In this document: positions 3,169 through 36,155 of the stretch, in pieces
Position numbering within the stretch: position 1 is the stretch's first letter
Layout: each line of letters starts with the position of its first letter
NCBI GenBank assembly: GCA_003232435.1
Contig: QIJL01000249.1
Span: 1 to 39,586, forward strand
DNA length: 39,586 bases
From: Flavobacteriales bacterium
Lineage (GTDB): Bacteria; Bacteroidota; Bacteroidia; Flavobacteriales; Flavobacteriaceae
Direction: 5' to 3'
The notes under the pieces: model-generated
Database searches by the model: none
The model's input: the letters and a program-made list of their open reading frames with translations, nothing else
What the model was told of the DNA's origin: nothing
Translations under genes and position numbers: made by a program

Positions 3169-4100
3169 TGAAGGAATATACTGCTGCCAATTCCTATAAA
3201 AACCACCGCAATTGTATCGTGACAATTGGCACCTTCGATGGCGTGCATATTGGCCATAAAGCCATATTAAAGCGCATGGTCGATATTGCTAAAAAAGAAA
3301 ATCTGGAATCGGTTTTACTTACTTTTTTCCCTCATCCACGTATGGTTCTGCAAAAAAACAGCGATATAAAACTCTTAAATACAATTGCTGAAAAAAAACA
3401 GTTGTTAAAAAGAACCGGACTTGACAACATTGTAATTCATCCTTTTACAATTGACTTTTCCCGCCTAAGTGCTCAGGAATACGTTCGGGATATATTGGTA
3501 AACGCCCTTAAAGCTAAAAAAGTAATTATTGGGTACGATCATCGCTTCGGAAGAAATAGAACAGCAACCATTACAGATCTTCGTGAATTTGGGAAAACAT
3601 ACGATTTTGAAATCGAAGAAATTAGCGCCCAGGAAATTGATGAAGTAACCGTAAGTTCCACCAAAATTCGGAAAGCCCTCAAAGCAGGAGACATTAATAG
3701 TGCAAACCAATCTCTTGGTTATCCGTATATGCTAACCGGAACCGTGGTTAAAGGGAAAAGCATTGGGCGAACGCTCGATTACCCCACTGCAAACCTATAC
3801 ATTCATGAACGTTATAAACTGATTCCCGGCAATGGTGTTTATGTGGTTTTTGCTGAAATAAACGGCGATATTGTATATGGAATTACAAGTATAGGAACCA
3901 ATCCAACAGTTGGTGGTACACAAAAAACCATCGAAACCTATTTTCTGGATTTTAGCGGAAACCTTTACGAAAAACAACTTTGCATAGAATTTATAACACA
4001 TATTCGCGCAGAGAAAACCTTCGAAAATACTGACCAACTAAAAGAAGCCATCAAAAAAGATGAAGCCTTCGCAAGAACGTACCTCAATCATTTTGGATAA
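3165..4100 (+). CDS. ribF: Bifunctional riboflavin kinase/FAD synthetase
   Basis: TIGTFDGVHIGHKAIL, IIGYDHRFGRNR, SSTKIRKAL, and a C-terminal flavokinase domain (GKSIGRTLDYPTANL, NPTVGG..TIETYFLDF). Confidence 0.95.
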   Translation: MMKEYTAANSYKNHRNCIVTIGTFDGVHIGHKAILKRMVDIAKKENLESVLLTFFPHPRMVLQKNSDIKLLNTIAEKKQLLKRTGLDNIVIHPFTIDFSRLSAQEYVRDILVNALKAKKVIIGYDHRFGRNRTATITDLREFGKTYDFEIEEISAQEIDEVTVSSTKIRKALKAGDINSANQSLGYPYMLTGTVVKGKSIGRTLDYPTANLYIHERYKLIPGNGVYVVFAEINGDIVYGITSIGTNPTVGGTQKTIETYFLDFSGNLYEKQLCIEFITHIRAEKTFENTDQLKEAIKKDEAFARTYLNHFG

Positions 4101-5430
4101 ACTGTTGTTCAAGCATATCGATAATACCAGTCTTGTTCTGTGGCGAGTGGTATTTGGTTTGCTTATTGCCATAGAGGGCTTTGGTGCCATCGCTACGGGA
4201 TGGGTAAAGCGCACCTTAGTAGACCCGGAATTTACCTTCAACTTTATCGGTTTCGAATTTCTGCAACCTCTCCCAGGCAATGGGATGTACTACTATTTTG
4301 CACTCATGGGTGTCTTTGGATTGTGCGTGATGCTGGGGTACAAATACCGATTCAGTATGGCGGCGTATGCAATTATGTGGACCGCAGTCTATCTTATGCA
4401 AAAAACATCATACAACAACCATTATTACCTCATGATGCTACTTTGCTGGGTTATGGTATTCTTACCAGCAAACCAATGGTTTTCTCTTGACGCACGTTTT
4501 AATAAGAAACTAAAATTGCCATCCATGCCGCGATGGGTCCTATTAGCACTAATCCTTCAGGTGTGGATCGTATTCACCTATGCATCGGTGGCAAAATGGT
4601 ATCCAGACTGGCTCAATGCTACGGTCCCAGAGCTATTTATGAAAGGAAAAAGCAATTACTGGCTTATTGGTGAACTTCTTCAGCAAAACTGGATACATTG
4701 GTGTATTGCATACATCGGGATCTTTTTCGACCTGCTCATTATACCGTTACTCCTTTGGAAACGGACCCGAGTTGTCGCTTTTGCTCTTTCGGTGTTTTTT
4801 CATCTCTTTAATTCGATTATTTTTCAAATTGGAATCTTTCCATATATGTCGATTGCCTTTGCTCTTTTCTTTTTTTCTTCGGAAACGTTACAGAAGCGAT
4901 TCCTTCCGAAGAAAACATTGTATACCAAAGGCGAAATTAAAGTTCCCCGATACAAACCGTTACTTATCGGCGTATTATCAATCTATTTTGTGATACAAAT
5001 TGGACTCCCGTTACGTCATTGGTTTTTTAAAGATGACGTACTATGGACAGAAGAAGCCCATCGATTAAGCTGGCGCATGATGCTACGTTCCAAGCAATCA
5101 CTACTTACCGTATGGGTGAAAGACAAAGCCACTCAAAAACTTGAACGTTTCGAGTATACAGAGCTGTTAAGCCCTAAACAAAGCCGAAATGTAGGCTCAA
5201 AACCCGACCTGCTTTGGCAGTTGGCGCAACGCATAAAAAAACTGGAAGCGGAAAACGGAAGGGATATCGCCGTATATATGGACGTAAAAGTGAAAATAAA
5301 CGATGGGGAGTTATTCCGCCTAATCAATTTCAAAACAGACCTGGCCAATGAGCCCTGGCATCATTTTAAACACCATGACTGGATCTTAGCTTCTCCCGAG
5401 GATTATCATAAAAAAGCCGATAATAAATAG
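4060..5430 (+). CDS. HTTM-domain membrane protein (vitamin K-dependent gamma-carboxylase-like)
   Basis: Multi-TM protein with YNNHYYLMMLLCWVMVFLPANQWFSLD and QVWIVFTYASVAKWYPDWL. Resembles the HTTM/VKGC family. The start overlaps the ribF 3' end. Confidence 0.8.
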   Translation: MKPSQERTSIILDKLLFKHIDNTSLVLWRVVFGLLIAIEGFGAIATGWVKRTLVDPEFTFNFIGFEFLQPLPGNGMYYYFALMGVFGLCVMLGYKYRFSMAAYAIMWTAVYLMQKTSYNNHYYLMMLLCWVMVFLPANQWFSLDARFNKKLKLPSMPRWVLLALILQVWIVFTYASVAKWYPDWLNATVPELFMKGKSNYWLIGELLQQNWIHWCIAYIGIFFDLLIIPLLLWKRTRVVAFALSVFFHLFNSIIFQIGIFPYMSIAFALFFFSSETLQKRFLPKKTLYTKGEIKVPRYKPLLIGVLSIYFVIQIGLPLRHWFFKDDVLWTEEAHRLSWRMMLRSKQSLLTVWVKDKATQKLERFEYTELLSPKQSRNVGSKPDLLWQLAQRIKKLEAENGRDIAVYMDVKVKINDGELFRLINFKTDLANEPWHHFKHHDWILASPEDYHKKADNK

Positions 5431-21802: not shown

Positions 21803-22153
21803 ATGGCAAAAAAAACTACATCAAAACCAAATCCTGAAAATCAGGATTCTACATCAAAAATCGAAGCGATTAAAAACCTGATTTTTGGTGAGAATATAGC
21901 GCAATACGACAACGAATTTGAAACCCTAAAAAGAGATCTCGACAAAAAGAAAAAGGTTTTGGAGGACTATATCGATGATGTTCGGAATGAGCTTATGCAG
22001 TCGATAGATTCGCTTAGTACAGATGTGAATATTCGCATCACCGATCTGGAAGATGCGTTCAATGCCAAGGCAGAATCTTTGGGCGAAAAGAAGGTGGATC
22101 GAAAAGAACTGGGTAAACTTCTTATAAATCTAGGTGAAAAAATAAGTTCTTAA
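21803..22153 (+). CDS. Small coiled-coil protein of unknown function
   Basis: IKNLIFGENIAQYDNEFETLKRDLDKKKKVLEDYIDDVRNELMQSIDSL; heptad-like helices, no known domain. Confidence 0.75.
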   Translation: MAKKTTSKPNPENQDSTSKIEAIKNLIFGENIAQYDNEFETLKRDLDKKKKVLEDYIDDVRNELMQSIDSLSTDVNIRITDLEDAFNAKAESLGEKKVDRKELGKLLINLGEKISS

Positions 22154-22177
22154 CGACCCATTACTGTATTAAAACTG

Positions 22178-22999
22178 ATGGTAAAAGAGGAAGAGGACAA
22201 ACTACAGTTGCTTCGTGATATCCTGTTAATTGATGACAGGGAAGTTGCGCGTGCTGTATCTCAACGACTGGACACCATTTCAGAAATACTGGAAAAACGG
22301 GAAAAGCTTTCAAAAAAAGTAGACCCTATTATTGAAAAACGCCTGAACAAATTTGTTGAAGATATTCCATCAACATTGGGACCTGTAATAACACAAACCC
22401 TGAAAGAACAGATTAAAAACTCAAAAGATCAGGTTGTTGAAGCACTTTATCCCATTCTGGGTAAAATGATTAAAAGATATGTTCAGAATGAAATAAAATT
22501 GCTTTCAGAAAGTATAAATAAAAAAGTAAACAACACTTTTTCCGTTCAAGGAATTAAGCGTAAAATACGTTCGGTATTTACCGGTATAAAGGAAAGCGAT
22601 CTTATTATCGCTGAATCGAACCAGCCACTTATAAATGAAATTTTTATAATTGAAAAGGGCTCCGGTTTATTATTAGGAAATTACAGCACCACCGAAACGA
22701 TGGATAAAGATATGCTCTCGGGCATGCTCACTGCGATTAAGAGTTTCGTTGAAGATGCATTCTCTGGAGGAGCTCAGAATCTTGAGGCTATAGAATATGA
22801 GTTGTACACCATCCATATCCAGAATTTCTTTTCGTATTATATCGCTGTAGTCGTTTCTGGAAATTACACCCGCGCTTTCGAGAGTAATCTTGAAAACGAT
22901 TTACTGGAACTTTCAAAAAATCTTTCTCCAAATATCAATACACTATTGCGCGAACAAGTCGATGAAATTTTAGAAAAGCACCTAAAGCAGTATTCATAA
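22178..22999 (+). CDS. Conserved hypothetical protein with helical N-terminus and possible roadblock/longin-like C-terminal region
   Basis: Helical N-terminus, then EIFIIEKGSGLLLGNYSTTETMDKDMLSGMLTAIKSFVEDAFSGGAQNLEAIEYELYTIHIQNFFSYYIAVVVSG. Confidence 0.7.
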   Translation: MVKEEEDKLQLLRDILLIDDREVARAVSQRLDTISEILEKREKLSKKVDPIIEKRLNKFVEDIPSTLGPVITQTLKEQIKNSKDQVVEALYPILGKMIKRYVQNEIKLLSESINKKVNNTFSVQGIKRKIRSVFTGIKESDLIIAESNQPLINEIFIIEKGSGLLLGNYSTTETMDKDMLSGMLTAIKSFVEDAFSGGAQNLEAIEYELYTIHIQNFFSYYIAVVVSGNYTRAFESNLENDLLELSKNLSPNINTLLREQVDEILEKHLKQYS

Positions 23000-23172
23000 A
23001 AAAAGCGTGTTCAACCATAGGATTTTTTAAGAAGGTCTTTCAGGAGATTATGGTAATAAATTAAAAAAAAGAAAGAAAAAATAGAATTCGTGGATTCTTT
23101 TTATTCTCTTTGTCTTAAAGTGTATCAACTAAATAGTAATTTTATTATTTTTAATCCCTAGAAATTGAACGC

Positions 23173-23658
23173 ATGGCAACGGTTCGAAAAATTGTACTTC
23201 TTGGTCATTTTGGGGTAGGAAAGACTAGTCTTGTGCGTCGTTATATAGACAGCCAGTTTAGTGAAGATTATCTTGTTACAGTTGGGGTTCATGTAAAGAA
23301 AAAGGATGTGATTATTGATGATGAGAAAGTTACGCTCATCATTTGGGATATCGAAGGAAACAATTCAATTGAAAAAACCCGAAACTCTTATCTTCTTGGT
23401 AGTCATGGATTTATGTATATATTTGATGTTAATCGACCAGAAAGCTACAATACTCTTCAAACAGAATTGGATTATCTCAATGATAATTTTAACGGCGTCC
23501 CTGTTTGTATTGTAGGGAACAAATGTGACCTTTTTACCAACGATTTTAACATAGACTTCTTTAAAGATTCAATTTATAAAGATTGCCATTTTACCAGTGC
23601 CAAAACTGGCGATAATGTTGAAGCGATCTTTCGCGATATTGCCAAACGAATCCAATAA
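23173..23658 (+). CDS. Rab/Ras-like small GTPase
   Basis: G1 GHFGVGKTS, G3 WDIEG, G4 NKCD, G5 SAK; about 160 aa single-domain GTPase. Confidence 0.92.
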   Translation: MATVRKIVLLGHFGVGKTSLVRRYIDSQFSEDYLVTVGVHVKKKDVIIDDEKVTLIIWDIEGNNSIEKTRNSYLLGSHGFMYIFDVNRPESYNTLQTELDYLNDNFNGVPVCIVGNKCDLFTNDFNIDFFKDSIYKDCHFTSAKTGDNVEAIFRDIAKRIQ

Positions 23659-23659
23659 T

Positions 23660-25168
23660 ATGAATCCAAGCCTCAAAACCGAAATCCTAAACAACAGGAT
23701 TCAGGAAATTCAACTCGAGAATAGTGGCATTGTTATAAGGAGTGATAACGCTCTTTTCAATATTTCTGAAGGGCAATCTATTAGCGAAATCCATCCGTTT
23801 TTTGAGGGTATTATTCCTTTGCTGGAAACAGTTTCAGACACCCTTAAAATCCCATGTGTCAATATAGATTTAGTCTCAGACTTGAAGATTGTTGACGTTG
23901 AATTTTTTCGGAAGGATGGTGAATTGATTTTATTTCTGTTTGATCTAACTGAACATTACGAAGCCTCTCAGCCCCTTGTTCAGGAAAAAAACCTAGTCTC
24001 TATTGCAAAGTATAAGTTGGCTTTCGAAAAACAACTATTGCAGGCTAAGGAAGAGTTCAAGAATAATTTTTTATCGAATCTTAACCATGAGATTAGAAAC
24101 CCCTTAAATAATCTCCTGGGTTTTATGGAATTACTGAAAGAAACCCGGCTTGACTACGATCAAAACGAAACCATGAAAGTCATGCAAAGAACCGGAGCGC
24201 ATATCAAGGTATTGATGGATGATATGCTCGACATATCAAAAATTGAACGGGGCGTCCTTGATATTAAAAATGTGAGTTTTAATCTGAGCCATCTGGTCAA
24301 TAATCTTCAGAACCATTTCCAGCTAAAATATCATGATAATCCAGTGGAGCTTGTAGTTAATTTCCAAAATAAAGTGCCACGTAAACTTATTGGTGATCCT
24401 ACCCGTTTAAATCAGATACTTTCAAATTTACTTGAAAATGCTTTCAGAAATACAGAAACCGGGCAAATCTCCCTGTCTGTTTCTGTAGGTAAGAAAACGG
24501 GGGAAACTATCAAATTCGAATTTACAATCTCCGATTGCGGAAGAGGGATTCCTTCAGACAAGCTCGAGAAAATTTTCGACTCCTATTTCCAATTTCAGAT
24601 CGAAAAGTTAAAACCTTTAGGCCAAGGTTTAGGTCTAAAAATCGTGAAAGATTTGACCGAGTCTTTAAAAGGTAATATCCAGGTGTCAAGTGAACCTGAA
24701 GGCGGTACCTCTTTTCAATGCATTATTCCTTTTGAAATAAGAACAACATCACAGGCTAAAAAAACAGTTCCAAAAGGGTCAGGAATTTTAATGAGCAAGC
24801 GAATTCTTATCGTTGAAAATGAAACAACAAACCAAATGCTCCTCATGAAAACATTTCTTAACAATGAAAAGGGATATGTTATTGAGGTGGCAATGAATGC
24901 CGAACATGCTCTAGAACTATTGGAAAATAACGTCTACAGCATGGTAATGTTTAAAATGTCTTTACCAGAAATTGGTGGAGAAGAGCTTATTTCCAGAATA
25001 AGTAATCACAAATTAGACACTATTGCAAACCTTCCTATACTTATTGCAAGTGGTAGCACCTTATTGCTGGAAAGAGAAGCAATTATCGCTGCAGGCGCCT
25101 CAGTCTTTCTAGCAAAACCATATACAAAAAAAGAGCTTTTCAATTGCATTGAAAAGCTCATTAGATAA
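23660..25168 (+). CDS. Hybrid sensor histidine kinase with degenerate receiver
   Basis: H-box NHEIRNPLNNLLGF, N-box NQILSNLLENAFRN, G1 DCGRGIP, G2 GQGLGLKIVK, then REC-like KRILIVENETTNQ...VMFKMSLPEIGG...LAKPYTKKEL. ATG 23660 lies 1 nt after the GTPase stop. Confidence 0.93.
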   Translation: MNPSLKTEILNNRIQEIQLENSGIVIRSDNALFNISEGQSISEIHPFFEGIIPLLETVSDTLKIPCVNIDLVSDLKIVDVEFFRKDGELILFLFDLTEHYEASQPLVQEKNLVSIAKYKLAFEKQLLQAKEEFKNNFLSNLNHEIRNPLNNLLGFMELLKETRLDYDQNETMKVMQRTGAHIKVLMDDMLDISKIERGVLDIKNVSFNLSHLVNNLQNHFQLKYHDNPVELVVNFQNKVPRKLIGDPTRLNQILSNLLENAFRNTETGQISLSVSVGKKTGETIKFEFTISDCGRGIPSDKLEKIFDSYFQFQIEKLKPLGQGLGLKIVKDLTESLKGNIQVSSEPEGGTSFQCIIPFEIRTTSQAKKTVPKGSGILMSKRILIVENETTNQMLLMKTFLNNEKGYVIEVAMNAEHALELLENNVYSMVMFKMSLPEIGGEELISRISNHKLDTIANLPILIASGSTLLLEREAIIAAGASVFLAKPYTKKELFNCIEKLIR

Positions 25169-25177
25169 CAAGAAAAT

Positions 25178-25603
25178 TTATTTTTTATTTAGCAAATAGC
25201 GATAATCTTCAAGGTCGAGTCCTCCCTTAAAAATTGCTATCGAGCGCTTAATTAGTTTGTTTGCAAGAACTTCGGTATAACCAAGACCAATTGCATATCG
25301 TGCTATTAAACTACGCTCTTCTTCATCAATTTCGTGATCGGCAAAAATTATTTTAAACAGATCCAACATACGCTGTAGGCGTTCGCTGGCTGAGTTTGGA
25401 GGATTAATAGGGTATTTTGATGGGTTTTTCAAAACAATCGCATATTCTACCTCGGTAATATCAAGTTTTCTCGCAAAACGTTCAAGTAGTTTTACTTCTG
25501 CCGGTATTAACTCACCATCCACTAAGGCCATTCTTACAATTGAAGCAAAGTGGCCAAGATTTTGGGAATGTTTTCCACTTTCAAAAAGATCTGTAAATGT
25601 CAT
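25178..25603 (-). CDS. TerB family tellurite resistance-like protein
   Basis: VRMALVDGELIPAEVKLLERFARKLDI...KIIFADHEIDEEERSLIARYAIGLGY; two TerB-like acidic helices. Confidence 0.85.
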   Translation of the reverse strand: MTFTDLFESGKHSQNLGHFASIVRMALVDGELIPAEVKLLERFARKLDITEVEYAIVLKNPSKYPINPPNSASERLQRMLDLFKIIFADHEIDEEERSLIARYAIGLGYTEVLANKLIKRSIAIFKGGLDLEDYRYLLNKK

Positions 25604-33025: not shown

Positions 33026-34519
33026 GTGGTCTCAATCTTAAAAAATTATTCTATGGAATCATTTGCACCATCTCCTTGCAATACCTCAACCTTAGCACCG
33101 TACATCCCATCAGCGGGAGATCCATGGAACGTTAGTAAAGTAAAACACGTCTACCGACGCCTTGGCTTTAGTGCCTCTCAGGCTACTGTAGATACAGCAT
33201 TAGGGCTTTCGCCTAGTCTTTTTATAGATCAACTGGTTGATAATGCATTTAGTTTACCGCTTACCCCAACACCTTTTTGGGGAAACTATTCGGTTCCCGA
33301 TTTTACTGATTACGAAACTGAAAATCAACAGTATATTTTTGATTGGCGTATTCAGACCGGAAATGACCTCATTACTGAAGATTTACGTGGTCGCATCACT
33401 TTTTTCTGGATGAATCATTTTGTTACCGAACTGGAAACCTATTTCTATTCACCATACCTGTTTCAGTATTATAATATATTGCAAACACATGCTCTGGGTA
33501 ATTATAAAGATTTCGTAAACGCAATTGGTATTAATAGTACCATGCTTATATATTTAAATGGTTTCCAAAACACCAATAACAGCCCAAATGAAAATTATGC
33601 CCGTGAACTGTACGAATTATTCACCCTTGGTGAAGGAAATGGCTATAACGAAACAGATATCACTGAAACAGCTAGGGCGCTAACCGGGTACAACCATTGG
33701 ACAGAAGCAGGTGCTCCAATATATTTCGATGTAATTACACACGATCAGGGTTCGAAAACAATATTCAATCAAACCGGAAATTGGGGGTACAGTGATGTTA
33801 TCGACATCCTTTTTCAGGAACGCGGACTCGCTTTAGCAGAATACATTTGCACGAAACTATATAAGTTTTTTGTGAGCCCAACGGTGGATTTATTAGTAAC
33901 TCAGGACATTATTCAGCCTCTTGCCCAAACATTAATAGCGAGTAATTATGAAATAGTCCCCGTGCTTAAGGAACTTTTTAAGAGTGAACATTTTTTCGAT
34001 GAACGCGCTTTAGGCGTTGTTATTAAAAGCCCTGTTGACGCCATTTTCAATTTTGTAAATGAAACTACTTTTTTCTATAACAATACCATCATCGAGGCTT
34101 TTTTGTACTACGCATCCCTGATGGGTCAGGAAATATACGACCCTCCCGATGTTTCGGGCTGGCAGCGTGATGAAGACTGGATAAGTACTTCCACATTAAC
34201 GGGTCGATGGCAGTTAATGGAACTCTACGTAGATTTCATCTTTAATGAGCACGAATTTACACTAACCGATTTGGCACGTGATCTTACAAACGACAGTAAC
34301 GATCCCGAATTTATAACCAGAGTTCTAATAGATCATTTCGTTTCCAAAGAACTCCATACACCCGAAGATTATATTACCGCCACCGATATATTTAAATGGG
34401 ATGTTCCCCAAAATTATTACGACGACGGAAGCTGGAACCTCAGCTGGTCTACAGCAACATATCAGGTAGCTTTATTACTGAAGCATATTGCTAGAATGCC
34501 CGAATTCCAACTTAAATAA
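33026..34519 (+). CDS. DUF1800 family protein
   Basis: WNVSKVKHVYRRLGFSAS, NYARELYELFTLGEGNGYNETDITETARALTGY, YDPPDVSGW, the DUF1800 pattern. The start at 33053 (MESFAPS) may be the true one. Confidence 0.9.
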   Translation: MVSILKNYSMESFAPSPCNTSTLAPYIPSAGDPWNVSKVKHVYRRLGFSASQATVDTALGLSPSLFIDQLVDNAFSLPLTPTPFWGNYSVPDFTDYETENQQYIFDWRIQTGNDLITEDLRGRITFFWMNHFVTELETYFYSPYLFQYYNILQTHALGNYKDFVNAIGINSTMLIYLNGFQNTNNSPNENYARELYELFTLGEGNGYNETDITETARALTGYNHWTEAGAPIYFDVITHDQGSKTIFNQTGNWGYSDVIDILFQERGLALAEYICTKLYKFFVSPTVDLLVTQDIIQPLAQTLIASNYEIVPVLKELFKSEHFFDERALGVVIKSPVDAIFNFVNETTFFYNNTIIEAFLYYASLMGQEIYDPPDVSGWQRDEDWISTSTLTGRWQLMELYVDFIFNEHEFTLTDLARDLTNDSNDPEFITRVLIDHFVSKELHTPEDYITATDIFKWDVPQNYYDDGSWNLSWSTATYQVALLLKHIARMPEFQLK

Positions 34520-34526
34520 CCCACTT

Positions 34527-36155
34527 ATGTGTAACAATCATCAATTACCAAAAAAGGAAGCGTCGAGAAGTGAAAAAGACGAAAAGAATATACACGATCA
34601 GGAACATGCAACCTGGAACCGTCGCTCGTTTATTCAAGCACTCGGTCTTGTAGGTGGAGGAAGTATAATGCTTGGAAGTGCTGCTGTTACAGCATCAAAA
34701 CCATCTCCGCTCTCCGTTGCCCTTTCTGAAAGTGAAACAGATAACATTCTCGTTATCATAAGGCTTAAAGGTGGAAATGACGGGCTTAATACTATTGTTC
34801 CGATATACGATTATGCTACCTATGCTAACCTTAGACCCAACATTCGTCATCAACAAAGTGACCTTATAAACCTCGACAGTGATTTTGCAATCCCCAACTA
34901 TTTGGATAGTATGGAACAAATGTGGGGTGATGGGCAGATGAAAGTAATTCACGGAGTAGGATATTCACCACAAAATTTATCGCATTTTCGTTCTTCAGAA
35001 ATCTGGGCTTCAACTGCAGACTCCTATTTCGAGCCAACCGGATGGTGGGGTCGTTATCATGAATATCTGTATCCAGATTACCTGATTAATCCTCCCGATG
35101 CACCTCCGGCAATTCAAATTGGAAGCATTGGTAATCTTATCTTCGATGGGCAAGAGACCAATTATGCATTTTCTGTGGCAAATCCAGAACAACTGGAAAA
35201 TGTAGCAGAGAACGGACAATTCCATGATCTGCTCAACTTACCCGATTGTGTTTATGGAGACAAGCTTTTCTTTATGCGGTCTACAACCAATACCACATTT
35301 ACGTATGCAAGTGTGATTCATGATGCCTACACAAGCTCATCGAATGAAGCACCATACAGCAATGAACAACTCGCGAACCAATTATCTATTGTTGCGCGCA
35401 TGATTAAAGGTGGTCTTGGAACTAAAGTTTATATGGTGACATTAGGCAGTTTCGACACACATGCGAACCAACCGAATGCGCACCAAAATCTCCTCGAAGA
35501 TCTGGCAGATACACTAAAGAATTTTTATATAGATCTTGGTGCCGCAGGTATGGAAAATAATGTGCTATCCATGACCATTTCTGAATTTGGACGCAGGCCT
35601 TACGAAAATGGATCGAATGGTACAGACCACGGTGCTGCATCGCCAGTACTGTTGTTTGGCCCCAGCTTGAACGGAAGTGGTTTTGTAGGTACACACCCCG
35701 AACTGGATGTTTGGGACGACAACGACAATCTCATTCCGTCTACAGATTTCCGATCGGTTTATTCAAGTGTGCTCACCAACTGGTTCTGTCTGGACCCTTC
35801 CGTAGTAGATCTAATAATGCTTAACGAGTCGTACAACACACTCGATCTTGGTTTTGAATGTGAAACTCTTGGGAATAGTGACTTCGGAAATGTAACCCAT
35901 TTTATCCATGCACCAGTTTACAAAAATAACCGCGTCTATATCGAAATAAACATGACCAATACTAGCCACGTAGACGTAAAATTGTACGACATCATGGGCA
36001 AAGAACTTGGCACGCTGAAAAATGAAGTCCTCTTTCCGGGAGTTCACGCTATTGATGTTAAAGCCGCTATTAACTCCAGGCTAAGTTATGGACAATATAT
36101 CTACAGGATATCGATGGGAGGACAGTTTTACAGTAAATCCTTAATTATTAAGTAA
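34527..36155 (+). CDS. DUF1501 family protein with Tat-like signal and T9SS-like C-terminal domain
   Basis: WNRRSFIQALGLVGGGSIMLGSAAV; LVIIRLKGGNDGLNTIVP; FGRRPYENGSNGTDHGAASPVLLFG; C-terminal VDVKLYDIMGKELGTLKNEVLFPGVHAIDV...YGQYIYRISMGGQFYSKSLIIK. Confidence 0.9.
   Translation: MCNNHQLPKKEASRSEKDEKNIHDQEHATWNRRSFIQALGLVGGGSIMLGSAAVTASKPSPLSVALSESETDNILVIIRLKGGNDGLNTIVPIYDYATYANLRPNIRHQQSDLINLDSDFAIPNYLDSMEQMWGDGQMKVIHGVGYSPQNLSHFRSSEIWASTADSYFEPTGWWGRYHEYLYPDYLINPPDAPPAIQIGSIGNLIFDGQETNYAFSVANPEQLENVAENGQFHDLLNLPDCVYGDKLFFMRSTTNTTFTYASVIHDAYTSSSNEAPYSNEQLANQLSIVARMIKGGLGTKVYMVTLGSFDTHANQPNAHQNLLEDLADTLKNFYIDLGAAGMENNVLSMTISEFGRRPYENGSNGTDHGAASPVLLFGPSLNGSGFVGTHPELDVWDDNDNLIPSTDFRSVYSSVLTNWFCLDPSVVDLIMLNESYNTLDLGFECETLGNSDFGNVTHFIHAPVYKNNRVYIEINMTNTSHVDVKLYDIMGKELGTLKNEVLFPGVHAIDVKAAINSRLSYGQYIYRISMGGQFYSKSLIIK

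Follow-up and report, generated by a model that had tools for sequence, protein, structure and literature searches.

The window analysed here, 39,586 nucleotides (nt) from a Flavobacteriales bacterium (assembly GCA_003232435.1, contig QIJL01000249.1), carries on its forward strand a four-gene cassette that computation places in the Group 1 Rup family, as a cytosolic, OmpA-less Flavobacteriaceae form. The genes encode CC, a soluble coiled-coil-like protein of 116 amino acids (aa; 21803–22153); H, a 273-aa protein (22178–22999); G, a Group 1 Rup-type (Ras/Rab-like) small GTPase of 161 aa (23173–23658); and HK, a soluble hybrid-type histidine kinase of 502 aa (23660–25168). Four consecutive same-strand genes with a GTPase–kinase spacing of 1 nt had been noted in a preliminary description of the sequence, and we confirm this layout: the G stop ends at 23658 and the HK ATG begins at 23660, with the GTG at 23597 in the open reading frame (ORF) list being merely the upstream-most possible HK start. 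Hydropathy gives no transmembrane (TM) segment in any of the four proteins. CC is charged and helical in composition, from which its coiled coil is judged. Neither CC nor H matches a Pfam family above its cut-off, hence there is no CvnC-type match either.

Group 1 Rup systems were predicted in 2014 by Wuichet & Søgaard-Andersen (PMC4316618). Such a system combines a coiled-coil protein, a protein whose conserved domain is of unknown function and in many cases leads into a TM helix and OmpA, a GTPase lacking the G3 Gln, and an output module (a cyclic di-GMP (c-di-GMP) enzyme or a histidine kinase) with an invariant N-terminal Gln. The window has a single-domain Ras-superfamily GTPase whose 161 aa fall within the Rup range of 150–240 aa, together with the DxxG Asp, no G3 Gln, a CC protein, the H domain and an output bearing Gln108. 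Systems that we found in Mesorhizobium and Nostoc come from lineages named in PMC4316618, where no Rup is reported as characterized. Our search of open-access papers likewise returned no experimental study of a Rup. The earlier remark that no characterized system of this composition was known is thus literally true; the composition itself had already been predicted by computation, under the name Group 1 Rup, in 2014 (PMC4316618), and conservons are closely analogous.

The Pfam Ras match covers residues 6–160 of G (E 3.9e-33). The motifs comprise a P-loop (GHFGVGKT), D59-x-x-G62, NKCD and SAK, with N63 replacing the catalytic Gln. Asp59 is present in 116/116 G homologues, and N116, K117, D119 and SA are invariant. 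The closest solved relatives are Rab1, Ypt1, Rab35 and Sec4. On its DxxG aspartate and Rab/Ras-like motifs, we class G as Rup type and not MglA type. According to PMC4316618, Group 1 Rups are the GTPases of prokaryotes that bear a strong similarity to the eukaryotic Rab/Ras/Ran/Rho group.

H is differentiated into a helical N-terminal part (residues ~1–135) and a domain (~139–272; 22592–22996) that modelling assigns to the roadblock/longin superfamily. An AlphaFold2 model from 66 homologues (all taken from loci in whole genomes or genome contigs) shows residues 139–272 in the order ββ-α-βββ-α-α, including a conserved GMLTAIKxFVEDAF helix, with a predicted local distance difference test (pLDDT) score mostly of 84–90, weaker at ~170–205; it supersedes an earlier model from 11 sequences (pLDDT 58.8). 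Searching the PDB with Foldseek, the best matches are mostly longins: clathrin-adaptor sigma chains, Mon1–Ccz1, zeta-COP, Sec22b (template-modelling score by target 0.68–0.69) and Ykt6. A poorer model gave matches to longins and roadblocks alike, with MglB and Ragulator among them. At the sequence level, the Pfam families matched by most H members include Fuz_longin_1 (4/40, best E 0.012) and Intu_longin_1 (2/40, 0.017), and an H-domain profile against PDB sequences gave TRAPP Bet5 as its sole match (E 0.65). With full-length H, a shallow profile had no match among PDB sequences, and the only sensible match of a deeper one was again Bet5 (E 1.1). A DUF445 match for H (E 0.0067) is attributed to chance from helical composition. 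We assign the domain to the superfamily because the predicted fold and the individually weak sequence links (MON1/CCZ1/FUZ, TRAPP Bet5) agree; the better model and these links lean towards the longin topology. AlphaFold and Foldseek thereby agree with the roadblock/longin-like fold first suggested for the product of the gene at 22178. Longins are described as platforms for guanine nucleotide exchange factors (GEFs) of Rabs, with roadblocks being relatives by circular permutation (PMC3521125, PMC6864590, PMC10933270); our literature search found no paper connecting longins with Rup systems.

H has OmpA-fused homologues in other Bacteroidota, Nostoc, Rhizobium and Mesorhizobium, to whose N-terminal half it corresponds. 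Flavobacteriaceae H proteins (267–289 aa) end right behind the domain, at the point where OmpA-type proteins continue into a TM helix, and the TM/OmpA part is absent from the window H and from the other Flavobacteriaceae H loci.

HK contains HisKA, HATPase_c and Response_reg by Pfam, with HisKA/HATPase intact, and the phospho-acceptor His is retained in 100/102 kinases. The receiver Asp is present in only 55 of these 102; in the window it is replaced by Lys (K432), as in most of its clade. The domains of the hybrid kinase proposed at the outset are therefore all there, and with K432 in place of the phospho-acceptor Asp it is a hybrid by architecture only. In ten Lacinutrix/Bizionia-type loci (L067, L077, L079, L080, L084, L087, L094, L095, L106 and L107), one GTPase is followed by two full tandem kinases, and every one of them includes a kinase whose receiver has Asn at the phospho-acceptor position.

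HKN, which forms the N-terminus of HK (23660–24013), was recovered only from proteins of these cassettes and carries the invariant Gln108. This position is Gln in 133/135 HKN sequences, taken from proteins whose output is HK, a sigma-54 activator or an adenylate cyclase; the only ones without it are two kinase-less proteins, 127 and 139 aa long. HKN precedes a sigma-54 activator in L126–L128 and an adenylate cyclase in L139 and L140. Pfam and PDB searches with HKN returned nothing coherent, so we do not claim a PAS fold for it. The sigma-54 activators of some Bacteroidota have a PAS domain behind HKN (L126:2905–4656, L127:8002–9756, L128:3395–5179; Pfam run on L126), and this output type goes unnamed in the available portions of PMC4316618.

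The four-gene order is conserved far beyond chance. We compiled 90 Flavobacteriaceae loci, ten from whole genomes and 80 named from genome contigs (one species occurring in both sets). A CC homologue lies directly upstream of H in 90/90 (84 as ORFs, six by tblastn), and in each of the 88 loci that no contig end truncates, H is followed by G and HK. In most loci the cassette is flanked by FBPase and TerB genes, which is probably its ancestral position. Other cassettes, including L057, L091, L096, L108 and L023–L028, are located in unrelated neighbourhoods; the four genes therefore move as a unit. The window's own genome carries another full CC-H-G-HK cassette, on contig C34 (identities 55, 53, 45 and 30%).

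Occurrence across genomes is matched as well. H is found in 10/61 sampled family genera, with G and HK beside it in 10/10, and HKN is present in exactly those ten of the 61 family genomes and in no other of that sample. In the order sample, 8/8 genomes with G also carry H. Profiles of H (346 genomes) and G (396 genomes) hit the same 14 genomes in the phylum samples; in three of these analysed genomes (G073, G094 and G191) G and H lie on different contigs, so that the association is more than physical linkage. The order extends to other Bacteroidota, a cyanobacterium and alphaproteobacteria, with other output modules: in Nostoc, Rhizobium and Mesorhizobium the CC profile matches the gene that precedes H, and the Mesorhizobium operon is annotated as hypothetical, OmpA family, Rab family GTPase and adenylate cyclase. 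Viral contigs scanned with H yielded no relative. The preliminary description had named the lack of a conserved neighbourhood as what would overturn a real GTPase/kinase module; the neighbourhood held in 90 loci across Flavobacteriaceae and, with other outputs, beyond them, and the module stands.

L020 and its relatives show a duplicated arrangement, G1-HKN-G2-HK, at the position of the window's H-G gap, and here the first HKN is a kinase-less protein of ~200 aa. Genes for kinase-less HKN proteins occur either with a GTPase gene on each side or behind H. Those of ~200 aa include L020:7432–8028 (reverse strand), L030:9301–9903 and L032:9301–9903; L036:8883–9233 and L050:8896–9246 belong to a shorter class (116–139 aa). 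Pairwise comparisons of the ~200-aa and ~116-aa proteins give proportions of non-synonymous differences (pN) of 0.11–0.29 against synonymous ones (pS) of 0.77–0.90. By this measure the kinase-less HKN, an effector domain without an output, is kept under purifying selection. In a GTPase tree, the window G falls within the copy-2 clade (support 94/91), and the copy-1 GTPases form a separate clade (100/99), which suggests that the 173-nt gap (23000–23172), atypical for a family in which overlap or near-overlap is usual, marks the loss of copy 1. The gap is probably the site of a lost earlier G-HK copy; no readable remnant of one was found within it.

How the cassette works can be put forward with some, if limited, confidence: we think it rather probable that CC and H control the nucleotide state of G, and that G acts on HK via HKN. 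CC and H would form a scaffold in which the H domain probably pairs with itself or with another copy. The roadblock/longin domain would bind G and govern its nucleotide state; its likeliest role is that of an exchange factor, like the longin pairs for Rabs (TRAPP, Mon1–Ccz1), or else that of a combined exchange/activating platform like MglB for MglA. G-GTP would then bind HKN and change the autokinase activity of HK. Gln108, which lies at the end of HKN, may provide in trans the catalytic Gln missing from G, making the effector also a GTPase-activating protein (GAP), a hypothesis already put forward in PMC4316618. Because the HK receiver lacks its Asp, the recipient of the output would be another protein, either a response regulator or a phosphotransfer protein. 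This mechanism is the best supported one, chiefly through the interchangeable outputs behind a constant HKN and the selection on kinase-less HKN: a kinase, an adenylate cyclase or a sigma-54 activator behind one N-terminal domain points to G acting on HKN.

Several observations weigh against this account. The 173 nt between H and G make co-transcription less than certain, and a G3 Gln is present in 5/116 GTPases, so its absence is not absolute. For H, the whole-protein predicted template-modelling score is 0.47, though the domain is confident; the two models disagree (longin versus roadblock); and single sequence matches to longin families stay below significance (best E 0.012 and 0.65). In five order-sample genomes a divergent CC-H pair stands without an adjacent G or HK, which means that CC-H can have another role; four of the five have no G match, and one of the five also has a complete cassette. 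These divergent pairs, with a CC of ~360–390 aa, belong to one family of the same order (L141:5175–7173, L142:5264–7211, L143:4512–6438, L144:5638–7642 and L145:5296–7258), where the pair may serve an independent function.

The direction of signalling could be reversed, with HK/HKN upstream and controlling G (as a GAP via Gln108, or by phosphorylation) and G itself the output. The Asp-less receiver of the window clade would suit this, as would a kinase-less HKN maintained by selection beside its own G, acting on the GTPase without a kinase; for conservons, the GTPase is proposed as the output on the ground that they lack a response regulator (PMC4316618). A constant HKN on three catalytic output types (kinase, adenylate cyclase and sigma-54 activator) fits G instructing the output better, and we regard the reversal as unlikely. 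We give a similarly low weight to the H domain being a passive platform or effector, neither GEF nor GAP, with CC-H localizing G, for example, to a filament or membrane. Many longin/roadblock domains do play a structural part (as in SNARE longins and the adaptor sigma and zeta-COP subunits, all among the types matched by H with Foldseek), and CC-H pairs occur without an adjacent G; against this, the phylum samples have H and G in exactly matching sets of genomes, and the best-known GTPase partners in the superfamily act on nucleotide state.

The preliminary description had instead looked to MglA/MglB, with a possible part in gliding or polarity. A Ras-like GTPase with a roadblock-superfamily partner is consistent with such a module, and the poorer H model also matches MglB. 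G, however, carries Rab-like motifs and the DxxG aspartate (Asp59), which is missing from MglA-type GTPases, and a search of the window's genome (84% complete) for Robl_LC7 of the MglB/CvnB type gave no match. Nothing links the cassette to gliding or polarity, and its occurrence in the family is sporadic (10/61 genera). The kinship is not upheld, and a true MglA/MglB-type polarity module for gliding is highly improbable. Chance clustering of unrelated genes, for which the 173-nt H-G gap and possible separate promoters could be cited, has next to no probability, being already refuted by the order kept in 90 loci across different neighbourhoods and by the matched genome occurrence.

The surroundings in the window are ordinary. 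FBPase, GNAT and amino-acid-kinase genes lie upstream of the cassette, TerB-domain and aminotransferase-like genes lie downstream, and tRNA synthetases and ribosomal genes are found elsewhere. The TerB-domain gene (25178–25603, reverse strand; Pfam TerB 3.6e-07) is the convergent downstream neighbour of the ancestral locus and lies outside the cassette; it adjoins HK in most cassettes, not in relocated ones. Scanning the whole window for the Bacteroidetes-type promoter consensus gave chance numbers, with no site in the H-G gap. Away from the cassette, the window encodes a vitamin K-dependent gamma-carboxylase homologue (4060–5430; HTTM and VKGC lumenal domains) and a side-by-side pair of DUF1800 and DUF1501 genes, of unknown function (33026–36155).

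The Group 1 Rup system is itself already known, as a prediction from 2014. What is new is the regulator-domain assignment of H for bacterial GTPases that bear a close resemblance to Rabs, together with the OmpA-less H, the Asp-less receiver of the window clade and the G-HK duplication with its retained kinase-less HKN. A roadblock/longin domain in the constant partner provides a concrete candidate regulator of Rups, and would extend the principle of a GTPase with a roadblock/longin protein (MglA–MglB, conservons, TRAPP) to the Rup family. With that domain, the cassette looks like a bacterial counterpart, in miniature, to a Rab GTPase with its exchange factor. The wider proposal, that Group 1 Rup is a bacterial pairing of Rab GTPase and longin regulator within one operon, in which the domain left unassigned in the OmpA-type partner serves as the longin-type regulator, with interchangeable kinase, cyclase, sigma-54 or c-di-GMP outputs, we put forward tentatively, at somewhat short of even. 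If true, bacteria have a GTPase and a regulator of the TRAPP/Mon1–Ccz1 kind joined in a single signalling unit, which bears on the origin of the Rab–longin pairing. The small, soluble Flavobacteriaceae form, without membrane or OmpA parts, is convenient for reconstitution.

Set beside known systems, the cassette shares with Group 1 Rup the coiled-coil protein, the conserved-domain protein, the G3-Gln-less GTPase and the output with an N-terminal Gln. It differs in that the window H lacks the often present (optional) TM/OmpA part, in its Asp-less kinase receiver, and in the roadblock/longin-superfamily domain recognized in H; PMC4316618 reports Rups as uncoupled from MglB and leaves the H-type domain unassigned. 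The same paper proposes that Rup systems are analogous to conservons. The actinobacterial conservons (CvnA–D, including mycobacterial MfpB/MfpD) also place a sensor kinase, a roadblock-superfamily protein, an extra small protein and a Ras-like GTPase in one operon. Unlike the window, they use an MglA-type (Group 2) GTPase and a stand-alone MglB-type roadblock, CvnB; the window has a Rab-like GTPase, the helical fusion protein H and a soluble kinase. The MglA/MglB polarity module is alike in joining a small GTPase to a roadblock/longin-fold partner, and unlike in that MglA has no DxxG Asp; no MglB homologue was found in the window genome, and nothing ties the cassette to polarity. The eukaryotic longin Rab GEFs (TRAPP Bet5–Trs23, Mon1–Ccz1 and Fuzzy–Inturned) likewise pair a longin-type domain with a Rab-like GTPase, and the H domain resembles them weakly, in sequence and fold. 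They are eukaryotic, heterodimeric and serve membrane traffic, whereas H belongs to a bacterial cassette, in which it is a putative GEF.

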